Below are positions 12,578 to 52,479 of a stretch of DNA of 64,000 nt, in pieces (position 1 is the first letter of the stretch; every line of letters begins with the position of its first letter). Location of the stretch: the NCBI RefSeq assembly GCF_023921805.1, contig NZ_CP074197.1, positions 2,232,001-2,296,000 of the forward strand, read 5' to 3'. The DNA is from Ruminococcus sp. FMBCY1 (lineage in GTDB: Bacteria; Bacillota; Clostridia; Oscillospirales; Acutalibacteraceae). The notes below the pieces were generated by a model that was not told the origin of the DNA, ran no database searches, and saw only the letters and a program-made list of their open reading frames with translations. The position numbers were made by a program, and so were the translations under genes.

Positions 12578-14848
12578 TTGGAGAAAAACGATTTTACTAA
12601 AAAAGAAAAGAAAAAGAAGGCCGCAAAGGGTCCTAATCAGCGCCTAAGACACAGAACGGCAGTTCTTATTGTACTTATTCTTGTTATCGGTTTTGGCGCA
12701 ATTGTTGCAAGACTCGGTTATCTTACCACTATACAGAGCGGAAAATTGCAGCAGGCTGCGGTTGAACAACAGCTTATGGACAGAAAACTCCCCGCAAAGC
12801 GTGGTACGATTTATGATTCAAACGGCAAGGTACTTGCGGAAAGTGCATCTGTATGGCAGGTAGTTATGTCGCCTGCGAATATAGATACCGATAAGCAGAG
12901 AGAGGCTGTTGCTTCCGGTCTTTCTGAAATTCTCGGACTTGATAAGGCAGATTTGCTTGAAAAGACAAAGCAGAACAGCTACTATGTAGTTGTAAAGCGT
13001 AAGATTGAATCTGATACAAGAACAAAAATTCTTGAACTTATCGATAAACTTAAGAAAGACTACGACTGCAGCGATTATGCGGTACAGCTGCAGGATGACT
13101 ACAAAAGATATTACCCGAATAACGACCTTGCGTCTAATGTAATTGGATTTACAGGCAGCGATGAACAGGGTCTTGAGGGTATTGAGTATGAGTACGATAC
13201 TTATCTTAAAGGTACAGCGGGCAGAATCGTAACCGCCAAAAACTCAATAGGTACTGAAATGCCTTTTCAATATGAGCAGAATGTTGCAGCTAAGGACGGT
13301 AATAACCTTTATCTTACAATCGACTCAACAATTCAGTCTATTTGTGAAAAATATATGGCACAGGGTATCATTGATAATGATGTTCTTAACAAAGGCGTAT
13401 GTATATTGATGGATGTAAATACAGGCGCTATTCTGGCTATGGTTACGGCAAACGGTTATGACCTTAACAATCCTTATCAGCTTTCAGACGAAGAACAGAA
13501 AAAAATAGACGCTCTTCCCGAAAATGAACAGGATGCAGCGGAAAGTGCGGCTTTGTCAGCAATGTGGCGTAATAAGGCTGTTGCCGATACTTACGAGCCG
13601 GGTTCTGTATTTAAAATGTGTACAGCGTCAATGGTTCTTGAAGAAGGTCTTGTAAATCCGGACACAAGTACATTTTATTGTGCGGGTTCAATGACAATCG
13701 CTGATGCCGATCCTATTCATTGTCATAACCTTGCAGGCCACGGCACACAAAGCTTTACAGAGGCAATAGTAAACTCTTGTAACCCTGCTTTTATGCAGAT
13801 GGGACAGTTGCTTGGCATTAACAAATATACACAGTATTATAAAGCATTCGGTTTTGCGGACAAAACAGGAATTGACCTTCCCGGTGAGGCTGATGACCAG
13901 TTCTTTACAGATATGGATGAAGTTGACCTTGCGGTAGGTTCATTCGGTCAGAACTTTAAAATCACACCTATTCAGATGATTACAGCTTGTGCCGCTGTTG
14001 CAAACGGCGGTTATGTACTCCAGCCTTATGTGGTTTCAAAAATCACAGATTCAGATGGCAATGTGGTAAAAACCGTTGAAAAGACAGTTAAGCGCCAGGC
14101 TGTTTCAAAAGAAACATCTGATAAGATGAACGAAATTCTTGAATACAACACATCAACTGCAGGTTCGACTTCGGGTTATGTTGCCGGTTATCGTGTAGCA
14201 GGTAAGACAGGTACTTCCGAGAAAAAGGGTGGGGAAATAATCAGTAACTATAAGGAAGACTATATTGCATCTTTCTGCGGATACGCTCCTGCCGATGACC
14301 CTCAGGTTGCTATGCTTGTATTCTTTGATACACCAAACGGTGCTTCATACTACGGTTCTCAGGTAGCATCTCCTGTATTTATCAATATTATGACAGAGGT
14401 TCTTCCTTATCTTGACATTAAAACAAGCTACTCGGATGACGAGCTTGAGTATATTGATACAGTAGCCGGTTCTTATGTTGGACTTTCAGTATCCGAGGCT
14501 ACAACAAATGCAGAAAATGACGGCTTTACAGTTACTGTAAAGGGCGAGGGCAATAATGTTATTTCTCAGATCCCTGCTCCGTCATCACAGATACCTAACG
14601 GCGGCAACATTGTGCTTTACACAGATGAGGCAAGTACAGCCGAAAAAGTAACAGTACCGAAGCTTGTGGGATATTCGGTTTCTGAGGTAAATGCCGTTGC
14701 AAGCTCATACGGACTTAATGTAAGCCTTGTGGGTGCGGCATCGGGCAGTGTAGTAAGTACATCACAGGATATAGCAGAGGGCACTATGGTAAGCGAAGGC
14801 TCACTTATTACCGTAACCTTCAGTTCGTCGGTGAGTGTGAACGATTAA
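12578..14848 (+). CDS. Division/sporulation transpeptidase (PBP2b/FtsI/SpoVD-like) with PASTA domains
   Basis: A 756-residue class B penicillin-binding protein that cross-links septal or cortex peptidoglycan with FtsW/SpoVE. It has a basic N-terminus, one membrane anchor (about 28-50), a dimerisation domain with RGTIYDSNGKVLAES, and the transpeptidase domain with Ser343 in GSVFK, Ser400 in SCN and Lys543 in KTGTS. Two PASTA repeats (about 630-690 and 690-756) close the chain. PASTA domains are known in SpoVD and PBP2x. Translation most likely starts at the TTG at 12578, 8 nt after AGGAG; another TTG at 12575 is possible. SpoVD versus FtsI cannot be separated by sequence alone. Confidence 0.93.
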   Translation: MEKNDFTKKEKKKKAAKGPNQRLRHRTAVLIVLILVIGFGAIVARLGYLTTIQSGKLQQAAVEQQLMDRKLPAKRGTIYDSNGKVLAESASVWQVVMSPANIDTDKQREAVASGLSEILGLDKADLLEKTKQNSYYVVVKRKIESDTRTKILELIDKLKKDYDCSDYAVQLQDDYKRYYPNNDLASNVIGFTGSDEQGLEGIEYEYDTYLKGTAGRIVTAKNSIGTEMPFQYEQNVAAKDGNNLYLTIDSTIQSICEKYMAQGIIDNDVLNKGVCILMDVNTGAILAMVTANGYDLNNPYQLSDEEQKKIDALPENEQDAAESAALSAMWRNKAVADTYEPGSVFKMCTASMVLEEGLVNPDTSTFYCAGSMTIADADPIHCHNLAGHGTQSFTEAIVNSCNPAFMQMGQLLGINKYTQYYKAFGFADKTGIDLPGEADDQFFTDMDEVDLAVGSFGQNFKITPIQMITACAAVANGGYVLQPYVVSKITDSDGNVVKTVEKTVKRQAVSKETSDKMNEILEYNTSTAGSTSGYVAGYRVAGKTGTSEKKGGEIISNYKEDYIASFCGYAPADDPQVAMLVFFDTPNGASYYGSQVASPVFINIMTEVLPYLDIKTSYSDDELEYIDTVAGSYVGLSVSEATTNAENDGFTVTVKGEGNNVISQIPAPSSQIPNGGNIVLYTDEASTAEKVTVPKLVGYSVSEVNAVASSYGLNVSLVGAASGSVVSTSQDIAEGTMVSEGSLITVTFSSSVSVND

Positions 14849-45630: not shown

Positions 45631-46275
45631 ATGATAGAATTAGAAAAACTTAACAGAAACGAGGCAGTGCGTTATCTCGGAGGAGCGGGAATCAGGCTTA
45701 ATTACCGAATGGATGTACTGATGGATGAATGCGAAAAGGCTGTGCTTGAAAAAGCGTCGCCAAAATATCTTTATGTAGAAAAGGATTTGCCGTGCCCGCA
45801 GATTATGGGCGGAAAAGATATAGAATCACACTTAAACGGTTGTGAAAAAGCTATTGTTATGTGCGCCACCGTCGGTTCAGAGGTGGACAAACTCATCAGA
45901 ATTTCGCAGATTTCCGATATGGCCCGTGCTGTGGTAATGGACAGCCTTGCAAGTGTTGCCGTGGAGCAGGTCTGCAATGCTTTTGACAAGATAATTGCGG
46001 AAAAATACAGCGATTATAATATGACATTCCGCTTCAGCCCGGGCTACGGAGATTATCCTATTGAATTGCAAAAAATAATTTTGCAAATGCTTGATGCGCC
46101 AAAGAAAATAGGACTTTGCACAAACGATAACTTTTTGCTTACACCGACAAAGTCTGTTACGGCGGTGCTGGGACTTTCAAAAAATCCTATAGAAAGAAAA
46201 AAGCGTGGCTGTGCCATCTGTAATATGAGAGAAACCTGTAAATTCAGGAGAAAGGGACTTCATTGTGGGGTTTAG
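45631..46275 (+). CDS. B12-dependent methionine synthase activation-domain protein
   Basis: A 214-residue stand-alone version of the MetH C-terminal reactivation domain, which binds SAM and helps re-methylate oxidised cobalamin. The marker RFSPGYGDYPIELQ corresponds to the SAM-site RxxPGYP motif of MetH. CAICNMRETCKFRRKG ends it with a Cys cluster. AGGGG with 7-nt spacing supports the ATG at 45631. It overlaps the metH gene by 11 nt, which supplies the missing domain's partner. Confidence 0.88.
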   Translation: MIELEKLNRNEAVRYLGGAGIRLNYRMDVLMDECEKAVLEKASPKYLYVEKDLPCPQIMGGKDIESHLNGCEKAIVMCATVGSEVDKLIRISQISDMARAVVMDSLASVAVEQVCNAFDKIIAEKYSDYNMTFRFSPGYGDYPIELQKIILQMLDAPKKIGLCTNDNFLLTPTKSVTAVLGLSKNPIERKKRGCAICNMRETCKFRRKGLHCGV

Positions 46276-48655
46276 AGAATTATTAAAGGAAAAAGAATTT
46301 ATTATACTTGACGGTGCGACAGGCACTATGATTCAAAAAAGCGGTGTACAGTATGACGAAGTGCCCGAAACGCTTAACATTACACATCCCGAACTTATTG
46401 CGTCATTTCATAAAGCTTATGTAGATGCGGGCGCAGATGTTGTGTATGCAAACACCTTTGGTGCGAATGCGTACAAACTTGAGGGATGCGGCTACAGTGT
46501 TGAAGAAATTGTAGGAGCAGGTATCAGCATTGCTAAAAACGCTGTCGGTGACAGAGCGCTTGTTGCCCTTGACATCGGTTCAATCGGTCAGTTGCTCGAA
46601 CCTGCGGGTTCGCTTACTTTTGAACAGGCTTATGAATATTACAAACAGCTTATCCTTGCAGGTAAAGACGCTGATGTTATAGCTTTTGAAACTATGACGG
46701 ATCTTTATGAACTTAAGGCCGCTGTACTTGCCGCAAAGGAGAACAGCGACAAGCCAATATTCACCACTATGACATTTGAGCGTAATATGCGTACTTTTAC
46801 AGGCACATTGCCGTCTGCTTTTGCCGTAACTATGGAAAATCTCGGCGTTGACGCTCTCGGCGTAAACTGTTCGCTTGGACCTGATGATCTTGAGCCGATT
46901 GTAAGTGAGATTTCCAAGTACACAAATCTTCCTATTGTAATTAAGCCGAATGCAGGTTTGCCGGACCCTAACACCAATGAATACGATGTTATGCCCGATG
47001 ATTTTGCAAAGTCATCTCTGTCACTGTTAAAGTATGGTGTTAAAGTTCTCGGCGGCTGCTGCGGTACAAATCCCGAATATATAAAGGCTCTTAAAGACGC
47101 TCTTGCAGATAAAAAATATCAGCCGTCAAAAAGTCAAGTTGATACAATAGTATGCAGTGCAAGTTCTGTTGTTGAAGTTAATCATCCGAGAATTATCGGC
47201 GAAAGAATCAACCCTACAGGCAAAAAGCTGTTTAAACAGGCACTTGTTGATAATAATATTGATTACATTCTTACACAGGCACTTAGTCAGACGGGCGCAG
47301 GTGCGGAAATTCTTGATGTCAATGTAGGTCATCCCGAAATTGACGAAAAGCAGATGATGGTGCGTGTGCTCAAAGCAATTCAGAGTGTTTGCGATGCACC
47401 TCTGCAGATTGACTCTACCAAACCCGATGTACTTGAGGCAGGACTTCGTGCTTATAACGGCAGACCGATTGTAAACTCGGTAAACGGTGAGGAAAAAAGC
47501 CTTAGCACGGTTTTACCGCTTGTTAAAAAATACGGTGCTTGCGTTGTCGGTCTTACACTTGACGAAAACGGTATTCCAAAGACAGCGGAGGGCAGATTTG
47601 AAATTGCAAAAAGAATTGTAGAGAGGGCAGAGGCAATCGGCATTGACAGAAGAGATGTTTTTATTGACTGCCTTACAATGACGGTTTCTGCCGAACAGTC
47701 TGCCTGCAGACAGACGCTTAATGCTTTGCACAGAGTAAAAACCGAACTTGGCTGTAAAACCTGTCTCGGTGTTTCAAATATTTCATTCGGACTTCCGAAT
47801 CGTGACCTTGTTACAAGAACTTTCCTTACTATGGCTCTTGAAGAGGGACTTGACTTACCGATTATTAACCCGAATATTGATTCTATTACGGGTGCGGTAA
47901 GAGCATACCGTGTGCTTGACGGTATTGATAAAAACTCTATGGATTTTATTGCCGCATATAACGATGCGGTACAAGCACCTGCCGCAAATAATAATTCTGC
48001 CGCATCCGATTTGGATATTATGACCGCTGTTTTCAACGGCTTGAAAAAAGAAGGTGCGTTGCTTACAGAAAAAATGCTTGCCGAAACAGGCGACGCAATG
48101 AAAATAGTAAACGAAATGCTTATTCCTGCCCTTGATAAGGTGGGAGAGGGTTTTGAAAAGAACAAAATCTTTTTACCTCAGCTTATTCAGAGTGCAAATG
48201 CCGCACAGGCTTGCTTTGATGTAATTAAATCACATATTTCCAAAACAAGCGGAGAAACCGTAAGCAAGGGCAAAATCATTGTTGCAACCGTTAAGGGTGA
48301 TATTCACGACATAGGAAAGAACATTGTAAAAGTATTGCTTGACAACTACGGTTATACGGTTGTTGACCTCGGTAAAGATGTTGACCCTCAACTTGTTGTC
48401 GATACTGCAATTGAGCAGGATATAAAGATGATTGGTTTGTCTGCTCTTATGACAACTACCCTTAAGAGTATGGAAGATACAATCAAACTTGTAAGAGAAA
48501 CAAAAGAATTACAGAATCCCGACGGAAGCAGTAAATGCGTAATTTTTGTCGGCGGTGCTGTACTTACGGAAGAATATGCTATGAAAATCGGCGCTGACTA
48601 CTATTGCAGAGATGCTAAGGAAAGCGTAGATACGGCTAAAAAGGTATTAGGTTAA
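46265..48655 (+). CDS. metH: B12-dependent methionine synthase MetH without activation domain
   Basis: A 796-residue three-module enzyme. The homocysteine domain (about 1-285) has the zinc ligands in GVNCSLGP and LGGCCGTNPEYI. The pterin/methyl-THF domain (about 305-560) starts at IIGERINPTGKKLF. The cobalamin cap and Rossmann domain (about 580-796) has the lower-ligand motif DIHDIGKNIV. It makes methionine from homocysteine and methyl-THF. It starts at GTG (46265). The reactivation domain is encoded by the overlapping upstream gene. Confidence 0.96.
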   Translation: MGFRELLKEKEFIILDGATGTMIQKSGVQYDEVPETLNITHPELIASFHKAYVDAGADVVYANTFGANAYKLEGCGYSVEEIVGAGISIAKNAVGDRALVALDIGSIGQLLEPAGSLTFEQAYEYYKQLILAGKDADVIAFETMTDLYELKAAVLAAKENSDKPIFTTMTFERNMRTFTGTLPSAFAVTMENLGVDALGVNCSLGPDDLEPIVSEISKYTNLPIVIKPNAGLPDPNTNEYDVMPDDFAKSSLSLLKYGVKVLGGCCGTNPEYIKALKDALADKKYQPSKSQVDTIVCSASSVVEVNHPRIIGERINPTGKKLFKQALVDNNIDYILTQALSQTGAGAEILDVNVGHPEIDEKQMMVRVLKAIQSVCDAPLQIDSTKPDVLEAGLRAYNGRPIVNSVNGEEKSLSTVLPLVKKYGACVVGLTLDENGIPKTAEGRFEIAKRIVERAEAIGIDRRDVFIDCLTMTVSAEQSACRQTLNALHRVKTELGCKTCLGVSNISFGLPNRDLVTRTFLTMALEEGLDLPIINPNIDSITGAVRAYRVLDGIDKNSMDFIAAYNDAVQAPAANNNSAASDLDIMTAVFNGLKKEGALLTEKMLAETGDAMKIVNEMLIPALDKVGEGFEKNKIFLPQLIQSANAAQACFDVIKSHISKTSGETVSKGKIIVATVKGDIHDIGKNIVKVLLDNYGYTVVDLGKDVDPQLVVDTAIEQDIKMIGLSALMTTTLKSMEDTIKLVRETKELQNPDGSSKCVIFVGGAVLTEEYAMKIGADYYCRDAKESVDTAKKVLG

Positions 48656-48660
48656 AACAA

Positions 48661-48695
48661 AAGGGCAGTTCCGAATCAGGAATTGCCCTTGGTTA
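48661..48695 (+). terminator. metH terminator
   Basis: A 12-bp stem with one wobble (48661-48672 with 48679-48690). The exit is TT-rich but not a strict U-run. Confidence 0.7.
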
Positions 48696-49034
48696 TATTT
48701 ATTATGCAAATTTCAGTTCTCAAATGACGAAATCTATAGCATTTAATAACTGTTATATTTTGTTATGGAAAACTCGTTAATCCATTGAAAATGCTAAACT
48801 TTTCATTGGTGTTCTGTCCATCACATCTTGTATCGTGTTATATCATTTTACCCTTGATTACGAACCCTCATAAGGGAAAATACAAGGGAAAGAAAATCTG
48901 GTGGCAACTAATAACAAATTATAAAAATGGCAATTGGAACTGGATGAAATGCTTTTAATACATTGTCGGTTATAATGACGATGTTACTGCGTTTTTTGCA
49001 AAAGTGCAAAAGATATAAAAGAGGTGGAAAATTA
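48696..49034. other. Gene-free AT-rich accessory DNA
   Basis: No ORF with a ribosome site is seen here on either strand. A dyad, CCCTTGATTACGAACCCTC continuing to AAGGG (48851-48876), with another AAGGG at 48884-48888, is the only structure. Base composition changes visibly from the metH side, suggesting the left edge of inserted DNA. The dyad is a place to look for an attachment site, but no integrase gene is present. Confidence 0.4.
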
Positions 49035-49091
49035 TTGAAATATAACGAATTATATCATACAATAGTAGTGTTTTTGTACAAGTCAATTTGA
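49035..49091 (+). CDS. Possible 18-aa peptide ORF (TTG start)
   Basis: TTG at 49035 lies 7 nt after GAGGTGG and reads MKYNELYHTIVVFLYKSI before TGA. The ribosome site is good but the ORF is very short. It may be a leader peptide or a gene remnant. Confidence 0.25.
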   Translation: MKYNELYHTIVVFLYKSI

Positions 49092-49115
49092 TAGAAAAGG
49101 GGGAGAGAAGGAACT

Positions 49116-49169
49116 GTGTATTTCGATTTGTATAACCAAAATATAGGCAAACTTATGGAATATGAATAA
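49116..49169 (+). CDS. Possible 17-aa peptide ORF overlapping the 89-aa gene
   Basis: GTG at 49116 follows a GGGGGAGAGAAGG stretch and reads MYFDLYNQNIGKLMEYE. Its stop overlaps the next start by 8 nt in another frame. It could be a translational coupler, or the N-terminal remnant of a frameshifted longer protein joined to the 89-aa ORF. Confidence 0.3.
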   Translation: MYFDLYNQNIGKLMEYE

Positions 49170-49431
49170 TGGACTTATAGTATATAGTTTCAAGAAAAAA
49201 CAACCAGATGAAGTACCAGTACCAGTGCCGGTTCCTGAAGAAGAGAAATATGATAACTATGTATATGTTTCGCAATATCAACCATCACAAGAGATACAAT
49301 TTTGGGGAACTGTAGCAGCTGTTCTTATAGTTGGAGGAACACTTGCAGAAGATGTGATTACAGGTGGTGGCGGAATTGCAGATGATGCCGCATCATTCTA
49401 TCTTGCATACAGGTTGATGTTTGGACTATAA
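49162..49431 (+). CDS. 89-aa Pro/Gly-rich small protein, unknown
   Basis: The N-terminal third is polar with a repeated Val-Pro run (PDEVPVPVPVPEEEKYD). The last 45 residues are one hydrophobic segment (GTVAAVLIVGGTL) followed by an acidic, glycine-rich loop (AEDVITGGGGIADDAASF) and a short hydrophobic end. There is no signal peptide. The arrangement resembles small accessory proteins seen beside toxin or bacteriocin genes, but I cannot name a family. No separate ribosome site is seen, so it probably depends on the overlapping 17-aa ORF. It lies 15 nt before the 245-aa gene. Confidence 0.55.
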   Translation: MNNGLIVYSFKKKQPDEVPVPVPVPEEEKYDNYVYVSQYQPSQEIQFWGTVAAVLIVGGTLAEDVITGGGGIADDAASFYLAYRLMFGL

Positions 49432-49446
49432 CAAAGGAGATTTTTT

Positions 49447-50184
49447 ATGTCGTTTAATTCACAATTTAAACTTATTTTTGGTGAAACATTTCAAACAGAG
49501 GGTTTTCGATATTGCTCAAAATTGAATGTTTTTGTTAAAATGCTCAATGAAGATTTGATGGCTTTTTTTGGAGTAAAAACAGCTCCGGCATGGAATAAAG
49601 GGGCAAAAGGATTTTTCCTTACTGCAGGAATTATTTCTACCTATCATTCCTCTATCGATAAAAAATCAATATTGTATGCTGGACAGGATTTAAATTCATT
49701 CCTTCCACGAAATGAAGCAAGAGTAAGTTTTGAATATACCGAAGATACAATGGAAGAGATTATTTCAGCGACGGCTTTATATGTGAAGGAACGTTTGATG
49801 CCTATATTCAATCGAGTTTATGATTTAGATTCTTTTATTGATTTTTTAAAGGAATATTCGATTAATAAATTGCGCACATGTGATACTTTTGAAGGGGAAT
49901 CTCTTGTCTTGATTAAAACAGATAACCATGATGATTTTCAAACGTATTTCCAGCAGCATCTGGATGAATTATACGCACAAATTGATGCAGGAAATGTTGG
50001 TGATGGCTATACGAAAGAAATGGCTTATGATGATTTGTTTCATGGTATTATCGAAAGTATTGTATATCCTCGGGATAAAGTATATTCTGACAAGAGTTTA
50101 TATAATGAGGCGCTGGAAGAGGCTGAGAGAAGAAAAAGTGAAAATATGAAAAAATTATATAGCTATCAAATATTGAAGAACTGA
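49447..50184 (+). CDS. 245-aa orphan protein, unknown function
   Basis: A soluble protein with no membrane segment. It starts MSFNSQFKLIFGETFQTEGFRYCSKLNVFVK, a layout faintly like DUF4304-type domains, in which an N-terminal helix is followed by a GFxxxxxxFxR strand. That likeness is only an impression. The C-terminal 60 residues are charged and helical. AAAGGAG precedes the ATG. Codon use is AT-rich and unlike its neighbours. It pairs with the 89-aa gene in an apparent two-gene cassette inserted between metH and an envelope gene. Confidence 0.65.
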   Translation: MSFNSQFKLIFGETFQTEGFRYCSKLNVFVKMLNEDLMAFFGVKTAPAWNKGAKGFFLTAGIISTYHSSIDKKSILYAGQDLNSFLPRNEARVSFEYTEDTMEEIISATALYVKERLMPIFNRVYDLDSFIDFLKEYSINKLRTCDTFEGESLVLIKTDNHDDFQTYFQQHLDELYAQIDAGNVGDGYTKEMAYDDLFHGIIESIVYPRDKVYSDKSLYNEALEEAERRKSENMKKLYSYQILKN

Positions 50185-50275
50185 TTACTATAGCAATTAA
50201 TCAAATTGATTTCAATAATGGAAGTTTAGTGTGATTTCTTGATGATGAGTGTTCTGAACTTCATTTTTGAAAAAA

Positions 50276-50350
50276 TTAAGCAATGACTATTGCAAGAGCA
50301 AATAAAGCAGAAAAAATAATTAAAGGTAGTCTTTTCTTTGTTTTCTTCAT
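50276..50350 (-). CDS. 24-aa hydrophobic peptide with basic N-terminus
   Basis: On the minus strand the ATG at 50348-50350 lies 8 nt after AAAGGA and reads MKKTKKRLPLIIFSALFALA, then IVIA and TAA. Five positive residues followed by one hydrophobic helix is the build of small membrane peptides, including type I toxins. A consensus promoter sits about 47 nt upstream. It is convergent with the 245-aa gene. No antisense RNA was identified. Confidence 0.5.
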   Translation of the reverse strand: MKKTKKRLPLIIFSALFALAIVIA

Positions 50351-50396
50351 AAAAATGTCCTTTCTTTAAGAATAATGTTATATTGTTTATAAAATT

Positions 50397-50425
50397 ATAT
50401 TATATCTAAATTAAGTATTTGTCAA
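50397..50425 (-). promoter_or_regulatory. Strong promoter for the 24-aa peptide
   Basis: On the minus strand a perfect TTGACA (50420-50425), a 17-nt spacer and TAATAT (50397-50402). A TATAAT overlaps at a 15-nt spacing. Confidence 0.65.
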
Positions 50426-50486
50426 ATTAGGTAAAAAAAACACATATTTTATCTACGCAAATAAGAAAAGAGCATTGCTTTGCAAT

Positions 50487-50515
50487 TTGACAAAAAATTA
50501 AATTTGATGTATAAT
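50487..50515 (+). promoter_or_regulatory. Consensus promoter of the capD-like gene
   Basis: A perfect TTGACA (50487-50492), a 17-nt spacer and a perfect TATAAT (50510-50515), giving an AT-rich leader of about 90 nt. Confidence 0.85.
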
Positions 50516-50610
50516 ATTGTGTGTTAATTTGTATAATATTTTAAAATTAGACGATATGTTTGTATTAAATTTTATATAATCAGATAAAATTTGCAGGGGA
50601 CAATTAAAAA

Positions 50611-52479
50611 ATGAAAAAAATAAATTATCGTAAGCTTATTCTTGCTTTGGCTGATGTTTTTATTATTGTGGTAAGCGGTATTGTGCTTAATTTTGCTATG
50701 TCGCTTATATTTCCGGAACTTTCGGAAGCAAGCAGAGGACTGTTATATACAATAATAGTAAACTTAGCACTGTGTATGCTTATTATGTACGGTGCAGGTG
50801 CGTATAAAAGACTTTGGCGATACTTTAATGAAAAGGATTACTTGGTTTGCGGTTTGGCGATGTTCGCAGGCTTCGCTTTGGGCTATCTTATTATGTCGAT
50901 TTTGCAGATACAGCAATCTGTTTTGTTTGTTACTTTATATGCAATTCTCGCAACAGGCGGAGTGCTCTTATTCCGATTTATATTTAAGCGTACTTTCCTT
51001 GATTTAACTGAAGTCGGCAGAGCGGATAATTGTGAGCGTACGCTTATTGTTGGCGCAGGCAATGCAGGCAGAATGATTCTTACCGAAATTCAGAATGCAA
51101 GTTATGACGAAAACAGTCCCGCACGCAATCTTATTGCGGTAGGTTTTGTTGATGATGATGAAACAAAACTTAACAGAAGCATTAACGGTGTGCCTGTTCT
51201 CGGTTTTTGCAGAGAAATTTCTAAGATTTGCAATGATAAAAAGATTACAAATATTATTGTGGCTGTTCCGTCTTGCGAAGAAGAGGAAAAGCGCAAAATC
51301 CTTGATTATTGCTCGGAAACTACTTGTAAAATCAAGATAATTCCTTATTTGAGCGAGCTTTTGTTTGACGATAAGCACACAGAGCTTATTTCACAGGCTA
51401 AAGAAATTAAAATTTCAGACTTACTTGGCAGAAAGCCGATTGAATTTGATAAAAAAGAAATAAAAGAATTGGTTACGGGAAAAATCTGTATGGTTACAGG
51501 CGGCGGCGGTTCTATAGGCAGCGAGCTTGTAAGACAGATTGCAAAGTATTCGCCTAAGCAGGTAATTATTGTTGACATATACGAAAATAACGCATATGAT
51601 ATTCAGCAGGAACTTGTGCTTGAGTACGGCAACAAACTTAATCTTGTAACTTTGATTTCATCTATCCGTGATTACGACAAAATGGAACTGATATTTAAAA
51701 CATATCGTCCTCAGCTTGTATTTCACGCAGCTGCCCACAAGCATGTTCCTCTTATGGAAACCGTGCCGGAAGAGGCAGTTAAAAATAATATTTTCGGTAC
51801 TTTTAATGTTGCAACACTTGCAGAAAAGTACAAAGCCGATAAATTTGTTATGATTTCAACCGATAAGGCTGTAAATCCGACTAATGTTATGGGTGCAACC
51901 AAAAGAGCATGTGAAATGATAATTCAGCACAAGGCTCAGCACAGCACTCATACCGAATTTGTAACCACTCGTTTCGGTAATGTTCTTGGGTCAAACGGTT
52001 CGGTTATTCCCTTGTTCAGGCGTCAGATTGAAAGCGGTTCACCTGTAACCGTTACTCACCCTGACATAATCAGATATTTTATGACTATTCCCGAGGCTGT
52101 TTCGCTTGTTCTTGAGGCAGGCGCTATGGCTCACGGCGGCGAGATTTTTGTTCTTGATATGGGTGCGCCCGTAAAGATTACAACTCTTGCCGAAAATCTC
52201 ATTCGTATGTACGGCAAGATTCCATATAAAGATGTTCCGATTGTTTTCACGGGCTTAAGACCGGGCGAAAAACTTTTTGAGGAACTTTTGATGGACGAAG
52301 AAGGACTTAAGTCTACCGCAAACGAAAAGATATTTATCGGTAATCAGATAAATATCAATTCCGCAGAACTGCTCAAAAAACTTGATGAGCTTAAAGTTGT
52401 TGCTAACAGCAACGACAGCGAAAAAACGGTAGAACTTCTTGCGGATCTTGTACCTACTTTTAACCATAAGACAAACTGA
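50611..52479 (+). CDS. UDP-sugar 4,6-dehydratase/epimerase, membrane type (CapD/EpsC/WbpM-like)
   Basis: A 622-residue enzyme with four N-terminal helices (about 8-125), a CoA-binding-like Rossmann domain (about 140-270), and an extended SDR catalytic domain. The NAD loop is TGGGGSIGSELVRQI. The catalytic segment is MISTDKAVNPTNVMGATKR, where the usual YxxxK tyrosine is Met, as in the WbpM/PglF group that makes UDP-4-keto-6-deoxy sugars from UDP-GlcNAc. It likely serves capsule or glycan synthesis. A GCAGGGG site precedes the ATG. glmS follows 34 nt later. Confidence 0.9.
   Translation: MKKINYRKLILALADVFIIVVSGIVLNFAMSLIFPELSEASRGLLYTIIVNLALCMLIMYGAGAYKRLWRYFNEKDYLVCGLAMFAGFALGYLIMSILQIQQSVLFVTLYAILATGGVLLFRFIFKRTFLDLTEVGRADNCERTLIVGAGNAGRMILTEIQNASYDENSPARNLIAVGFVDDDETKLNRSINGVPVLGFCREISKICNDKKITNIIVAVPSCEEEEKRKILDYCSETTCKIKIIPYLSELLFDDKHTELISQAKEIKISDLLGRKPIEFDKKEIKELVTGKICMVTGGGGSIGSELVRQIAKYSPKQVIIVDIYENNAYDIQQELVLEYGNKLNLVTLISSIRDYDKMELIFKTYRPQLVFHAAAHKHVPLMETVPEEAVKNNIFGTFNVATLAEKYKADKFVMISTDKAVNPTNVMGATKRACEMIIQHKAQHSTHTEFVTTRFGNVLGSNGSVIPLFRRQIESGSPVTVTHPDIIRYFMTIPEAVSLVLEAGAMAHGGEIFVLDMGAPVKITTLAENLIRMYGKIPYKDVPIVFTGLRPGEKLFEELLMDEEGLKSTANEKIFIGNQININSAELLKKLDELKVVANSNDSEKTVELLADLVPTFNHKTN

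Follow-up and report, generated by a model that had tools for sequence, protein, structure and literature searches.

A predicted orphan immunity gene beside a toxin stub in an accessory cassette of a Ruminococcus genome

We analyse a 64,000-nucleotide stretch of the genome of Ruminococcus sp. FMBCY1 (hereafter the window) and find that a cassette between metH and a polysaccharide gene probably carries an orphan immunity gene: ORF245 would be the immunity protein of a large polymorphic-toxin system, of whose toxin gene a stub, ORF89, is left beside it, and the nuclease toxin of a rival would be blocked. We give this reading a probability of about 0.7. To a gene caller the stretch would be two hypothetical proteins, and the orphan-immunity reading explains them. 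In outline, ORF245 would descend from a gene paired with a large polymorphic toxin that had a nuclease domain of the PD-(D/E)XK-like kind and ended in a hydrophobic, Gly-rich tail. Mobile elements would have moved between bacteria a piece in which the immunity gene is complete but the toxin gene is represented by its end only, and this piece would have settled between metH and the polysaccharide gene. The toxin stub would no longer be toxic because the nuclease-like part is missing, and ORF245, as a cytoplasmic protein, would attach to and inhibit the nuclease domain when a rival delivers a toxin of this family, which could let the host survive attack from neighbouring bacteria. This binding and protection, like the nuclease fold, we infer.

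The neighbours of the cassette are the ordinary genes that a sequence-only reading of this DNA had taken them to be: metH (46265-48655; Pfam S-methyl_trans, Pterin_bind and B12-binding) on the left and a Polysacc_synt_2 gene (50611-52479, by Pfam) on the right. Between them lie two co-directional ORFs, ORF89 and ORF245, with a gap of 15 bp, and a 24-aa ORF on the minus strand, all three present where that reading had placed them. The features discussed below are as follows.

48661..48690, plus strand: terminator-like hairpin after metH (consensus scan, 12 pairs), at the left edge of the accessory stretch
48741..48957, plus strand: conserved non-coding block of about 215 bp, with a second copy in the same genome and copies on plasmids and in a viral contig
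49162..49431, plus strand: ORF89, predicted C-terminal stub of a nuclease-like polymorphic toxin, by homology to loci L028 and L082
49288..50286, plus strand: stretch of 999 bp in common with Falcatimonas sp. MSJ-15 (L007 7842-8840)
49447..50184, plus strand: ORF245, predicted orphan immunity protein, with AAAGGAG 7 nt before its ATG
50276..50350, minus strand: ORF of a 24-aa membrane peptide, of which only the last bases fall within the transferred part

The cassette is, as had been noted, more AT-rich than both neighbours: GC is 31.2% in 48656-49161, 38.1% in ORF89, 32.2% in ORF245 and 21.6% in 50185-50610, compared with 42.2% in metH, 39.1% in the downstream gene and 39.5% in the window. 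None of 1000 order-1 shuffles of 48656-50610 holds an ORF of at least 245 aa. An ORF of at least 89 aa appears in 168 of the 1000, so that ORF89 is by length alone within chance; what supports this candidate is its homology, not its length. A scan of the stretch for terminator-like hairpins found one (0.7 expected in shuffles), and promoter-like sites show no excess (16, with 12.5 expected and an sd of 3.2). The mini-ORFs to which attention had been drawn include one of 57 aa (48785-48958) that overlaps the conserved intergenic block and turns out not to be conserved, its frame holding two to three stops in each of the four other aligned block copies; a second, of 42 aa (48963-49091), lies outside the block. 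The 24-aa peptide has no relatives in the loci examined, and no similar peptide stands at that position in 28 related genomes. Its ORF has an AAAGGAC site and a promoter-like TTGACA-17-TAATAT; the latter points away from a perfect TTGACA-17-TATAAT that precedes the polysaccharide gene, and together these two make up a 33-nt inverted repeat (79%; region 50397-50516).

The cassette is real and accessory. Conservation and synteny in all relatives is not what we see: among the 150 genomes of the genus that were searched, the sole carrier of ORF245 is the window's own. Relatives of ORF245 occur in 6 of the 398 genomes searched from the host's family and in 2 of 391 from its class (own genome included in both), and in 7 of 397 genomes of the family of Falcatimonas (Falcatimonas included), one of which, G825, was dropped later. 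A comparison of this site in related genomes, proposed earlier as a check, finds the whole block absent, with ORF89 and ORF245 in 0 of 29 relatives' loci and 0 of 14 longer stretches. The downstream polysaccharide gene is present in 40 of 40 genus genomes searched. Directly upstream of it, metH is found in 5 of the 29 relatives with compared loci and is missing from the examined stretch of the remaining ones, so that this adjacency is itself variable. Four of the five have a plain intergene of about 40-290 bp between the two genes; the fifth, a congener (L068), has about 1.2 kb with an unrelated gene, metallophosphoesterase-like by eye, and given this different gene the site may take in genes repeatedly.

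What the window does share, it shares with another genus. The stretch 49288-50286 matches, at 98.7% identity, a part of the Falcatimonas sp. MSJ-15 genome with recombinase genes next to it, and we therefore regard the transfer as recent; its left end falls within ORF89, and the two ORF245 proteins are about 99% identical. NCBI places this Falcatimonas in Clostridiaceae, and since the two family searches gave different genome sets, the two genomes presumably belong to different families. Identity across genera, occurrence in one of 150 congeners and absence from the site in relatives together bear out the earlier description of an accessory block.

Traces of mobile elements accompany both copies. 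The Falcatimonas copy sits after a gene with TRAM and tRNA_U5-meth_tr domains, which we take to be rlmD-like (the name is our own assignment; rumA is another name for it). On its other side come an integrase fragment, an HTH gene, a gene of the RhuM family and a large serine recombinase. Reportedly, rumA has been named together with integrative elements in two papers (PMC4701971, PMC4320837). The rlmD-like ends of Falcatimonas and of the window's genome are 84% identical over 554 bp. By eye, the Falcatimonas rlmD-like gene (L007 5544-7202) and the serine recombinase (12841-14832) have a similar C-terminal stretch; it looks as if the element might supply a new end to the gene that it enters.

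In the window, upstream of ORF89, the block of about 215 bp has a second copy in the same genome (G000:C1:1029213-1029426, about 70% identical), where an rlmD-like gene ends and MobC/relaxase genes lie close by. Further copies lie on plasmids of Lachnospira eligens and Agathobacter rectalis, in parts that carry no annotation, and on one viral contig. The boundaries are the same in five places (the window, the second copy, L008, L009 and L092), where mobile-element genes adjoin and the copies align without gaps over 171 bases. A DUF6061 gene is annotated beside the Agathobacter copy; similar starts are visible by eye beside the other copies, the one in the window's genome being unnamed by Pfam. 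Two further genomes have shorter matches to the block, each 7-46 bp before a TnpV gene. The block is possibly an attachment site or an element end. Signs of an RNA structure in it are weak (30 pairs, two of them changed on both sides, from five sequences of which two are 98.7% identical). The one match that Rfam gave in the analysis (E 0.042; 32.8 bits, with a gathering score of 115) we take as chance.

We now consider what ORF89 is. It consists of the last strand of a nuclease-like domain, a Pro-rich linker and a Gly-rich hydrophobic tail: it starts with NNGLIVYSF, followed by the linker, and matches the toxin tail of L028 (E 5e-15) and the linker after NGLILYSF in the giant protein of L082 (E 6e-4). 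From these matches ORF89 reads as the last strand, linker and tail of a protein whose rest is lost, and on its sequence it is a C-terminal fragment of a much larger toxin-like protein rather than a stand-alone toxin. At L028, in a genome of the family of Falcatimonas, the tail directly precedes an ORF245 homologue of 40% identity. Further upstream, in other frames, lie three more parts: a fragment with the end YYNLQNGLILYRFEK, a nuclease-like piece (WNF.HN..., E, G.GR.DL, IWRVKP), and one that matches VWA weakly (E 0.049, short of the Pfam cut-off). The L028 toxin is thus broken into frames, breaks that assembly errors could account for. The same nuclease-like domain occurs in L082 (40% over 73 residues, E 1e-12), where it continues in one frame into YYNPGNGLILYSF and the Pro-rich linker, and the domains of both loci share a matching NGLI.Y.F end and linker. 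The L082 protein (G866:C11; 2848 aa) has a signal-like start and long Gly-rich repeats after the nuclease-like domain. It is the only intact nuclease-bearing protein; here the domain stands close to the N-terminus rather than at the C-terminal end, and no such tail was found in the protein. We found no intact single open frame with both the nuclease-like domain and the tail, and only one toxin-bearing locus adjoins an ORF245-type gene. The G866 genome also has an ORF245 homologue with two domains (474 aa) and, on another contig, the start of a second copy.

The nuclease-like piece is present in 2 of 397 genomes. Its motifs come in the order H, E, GRxD, WEVKP; the domain has no Pfam or PDB match, and from E..GRxD..WEVKP the ancestral toxin may have had a PD-(D/E)XK-like fold. 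Neither the L082 nor the L028 version was found in the window, and the domain was not found in Falcatimonas either. Searched with the L082 piece, the window's own genome (99.81% complete, one contig) gave nothing at E 0.1 and appears to be without the cognate effector. The L028 piece gave a single match there (E 0.022), which we rejected since its frame is relaxase-like by eye.

ORF245 itself is an orphan, as had been recognised. Neither it nor ORF89 has a credible family in Pfam, NCBIfam, PHROGs or PADLOC (the best PHROGs match, in searches with both, is E 0.015 over 36 residues), and a sequence search of PDB gave nothing credible. We take ORF245 to resemble DUF4304; the Pfam profile DUF4304 (PF14137)/Imm54 gave no match up to E 10 with ORF245 or up to E 1 with seven family members. 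An AlphaFold model of ORF245 from two near-identical rows is useless (mean pLDDT 42.2). Phage searches found nothing, and searches of viral contigs with ORF245, the tail, the nuclease-like pieces and two ORF245 homologues also gave no match. Among plasmids none matched ORF89, the nuclease-like pieces or the L028 homologue, and a Neorhizobium plasmid match to ORF245 (23%, E 3e-4) was rejected because its frame reads by eye as an FMN reductase.

Matches of the ORF245 type were found in 14 genomes, of which 13 are plausible after dropping G825, whose match covers 40 residues (E 7e-5) of a frame resembling an RNA methyltransferase by eye. Besides the 99% identical Falcatimonas copy, the relatives are 16-40% identical to ORF245 and keep G19-F/Y20; relative to the L028 homologue dN is 0.56 and dS is near saturation. 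The pair, which it had been suggested to seek elsewhere, does recur: in the loci examined, 4 of the 13 genomes (the window's, Falcatimonas, L028 and L029) have the tail immediately before their ORF245-type gene, and these include the closest homologues, at 99, 40 and 33% identity. In all four the ORF245-type gene is open and the toxin is a stub or broken, the open frame in Falcatimonas being 48 codons only and L029 having a stop just before the tail. At L028, where toxin fragments and tail are followed by the 40% identical gene, the ORF245 homologue is the gene directly downstream of the toxin. No tail was found nearby in the other nine, and the ORF245 family may therefore have other roles. 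That the family are general cytoplasmic proteins, alone or fused (two-domain forms of 474-475 aa occur in G539 and G866), which met the toxin stub by chance, we hold to be highly improbable: those nine argue for it, but in the window, as in its three closest homologues, the tail comes directly before the gene, and the sparse, patchy occurrence is unlike that of a housekeeping gene.

Could the two genes instead be leftovers of a mobile element without present function? The AT-rich stretch, the truncated toxin, the single carrier among congeners and a G214 relative (without a tail) that is broken into two frames fit such debris, but ORF245 is intact and has a strong ribosome-binding-type site, AAAGGAG, read from the sequence. 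Moreover, the two parts of the shared stretch do not change alike. Compared with Falcatimonas, the stub differs at 7 of 144 bases and ORF245 at 5 of 738 (Fisher P 0.001); with the first 20 edge bases left out the stub differs at 4 of 124 (P 0.029 versus ORF245). Near-identity of ORF245 could also come from recent arrival, and its changes (three synonymous, two non-synonymous) are too few to speak of selection and give no power here. On balance we regard neutral debris as unlikely.

The same comparison bears on whether ORF89 and ORF245 could be a working toxin-antitoxin or bacteriocin-immunity pair, with ORF89 itself a membrane-active toxin and ORF245 its antitoxin or immunity protein. Their close spacing speaks for such a pair, as does the hydrophobic tail, the part retained in all four loci. 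Against it, the start of ORF89 lies inside a longer ancestral protein, no clear ribosome-binding site is visible before it, the short Falcatimonas frame and the L029 stop interrupt its counterparts, and the stub changes faster than ORF245. A toxin-antitoxin module has no PADLOC match, and ORF89 reads as a fragment. We consider a working pair very unlikely. The toxin/immunity pairing proposed by the sequence-only reading thus survives in one half: ORF245 sits where an immunity protein is expected, whereas ORF89 is a toxin end without the nuclease-like domain, and because that domain of the larger toxin is lacking we favour reading the pair as an orphaned immunity gene next to what is left of a toxin.

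A bolder version, to us a long shot, is that Clostridia have their own acquired-defence cassettes: immunity genes with no more than the toxin tip attached, on elements that insert at rlmD-like genes and have the conserved intergenic site of roughly 215 bp, directed against an undescribed family of nuclease toxins with a Gly-rich hydrophobic GTxxEDVxxGGxGIxDDxAS tail. On that version, a tail that has stayed beside the immunity gene more than once would point to a use of the tip in its own right, for instance in leading translation or in offering homology by which recombination could bring in new toxin-immunity pairs. A literature search for ORF245-type pairing in Clostridia, mostly outside subscription journals, gave no paper that we recognised as describing it. 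The remnant still attached to the gene, with relatives outside named families, makes a concrete toxin-immunity family to test, and it opens the question of how immunity comes to be separated from its toxin and handed to other bacteria.

Type VI secretion is not expected in a Clostridia-type genome. Among known toxins, the signature here recalls Tox-REase-9 with its partner Imm54. In the part of Zhang et al. 2012 (PMC3482391) available to us, Tox-REase-9 has GxxxH, E, D, ELKP and YxxE, and Imm54 is listed with a GF motif. The likenesses are the order H, E, GRxD, WEVKP in the nuclease-like domain, an immunity gene directly downstream of the toxin, and the G19-F/Y20 kept in ORF245 relatives. The differences are that neither protein here has a Pfam match and that the toxin is lost, and the comparison is by motif description, not by profile. 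ORF89 is related to the C-terminal part of a putative REase-type polymorphic toxin, that of L028 being itself broken into frames, and the catalytic domain of such a toxin was not found in it. RdnE/RdnI, described in the accessible part of PMC12483513 as a PD-(D/E)XK effector with a cross-protecting immunity family, is alike in predicted effector type, in the adjacent immunity gene and in its spread across phyla; RdnI is of a different named family and was set against ORF245 by description, not by sequence.

The best-described orphan immunity genes are those of Gram-negative gut Bacteroidales, where AID-1 and rAID are known (PMC12247911, in the portion available). Like these, ORF245 would be an immunity gene whose genome lacks the matching effector, on mobile DNA beside a conserved intergenic sequence. 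Unlike them, it stands alone between metH and the polysaccharide gene instead of in an array, with no recombinase adjoining at the site, so that the tyrosine recombinase and immunity-gene array of a rAID cluster were not found here; the host is a Clostridia-type genome, and the toxin stub is still attached. With near-identical, transferred copies in two Clostridia-type genomes, the cassette appears to add a new case to an already known strategy, acquired interbacterial defence, here in a Clostridia-type host.
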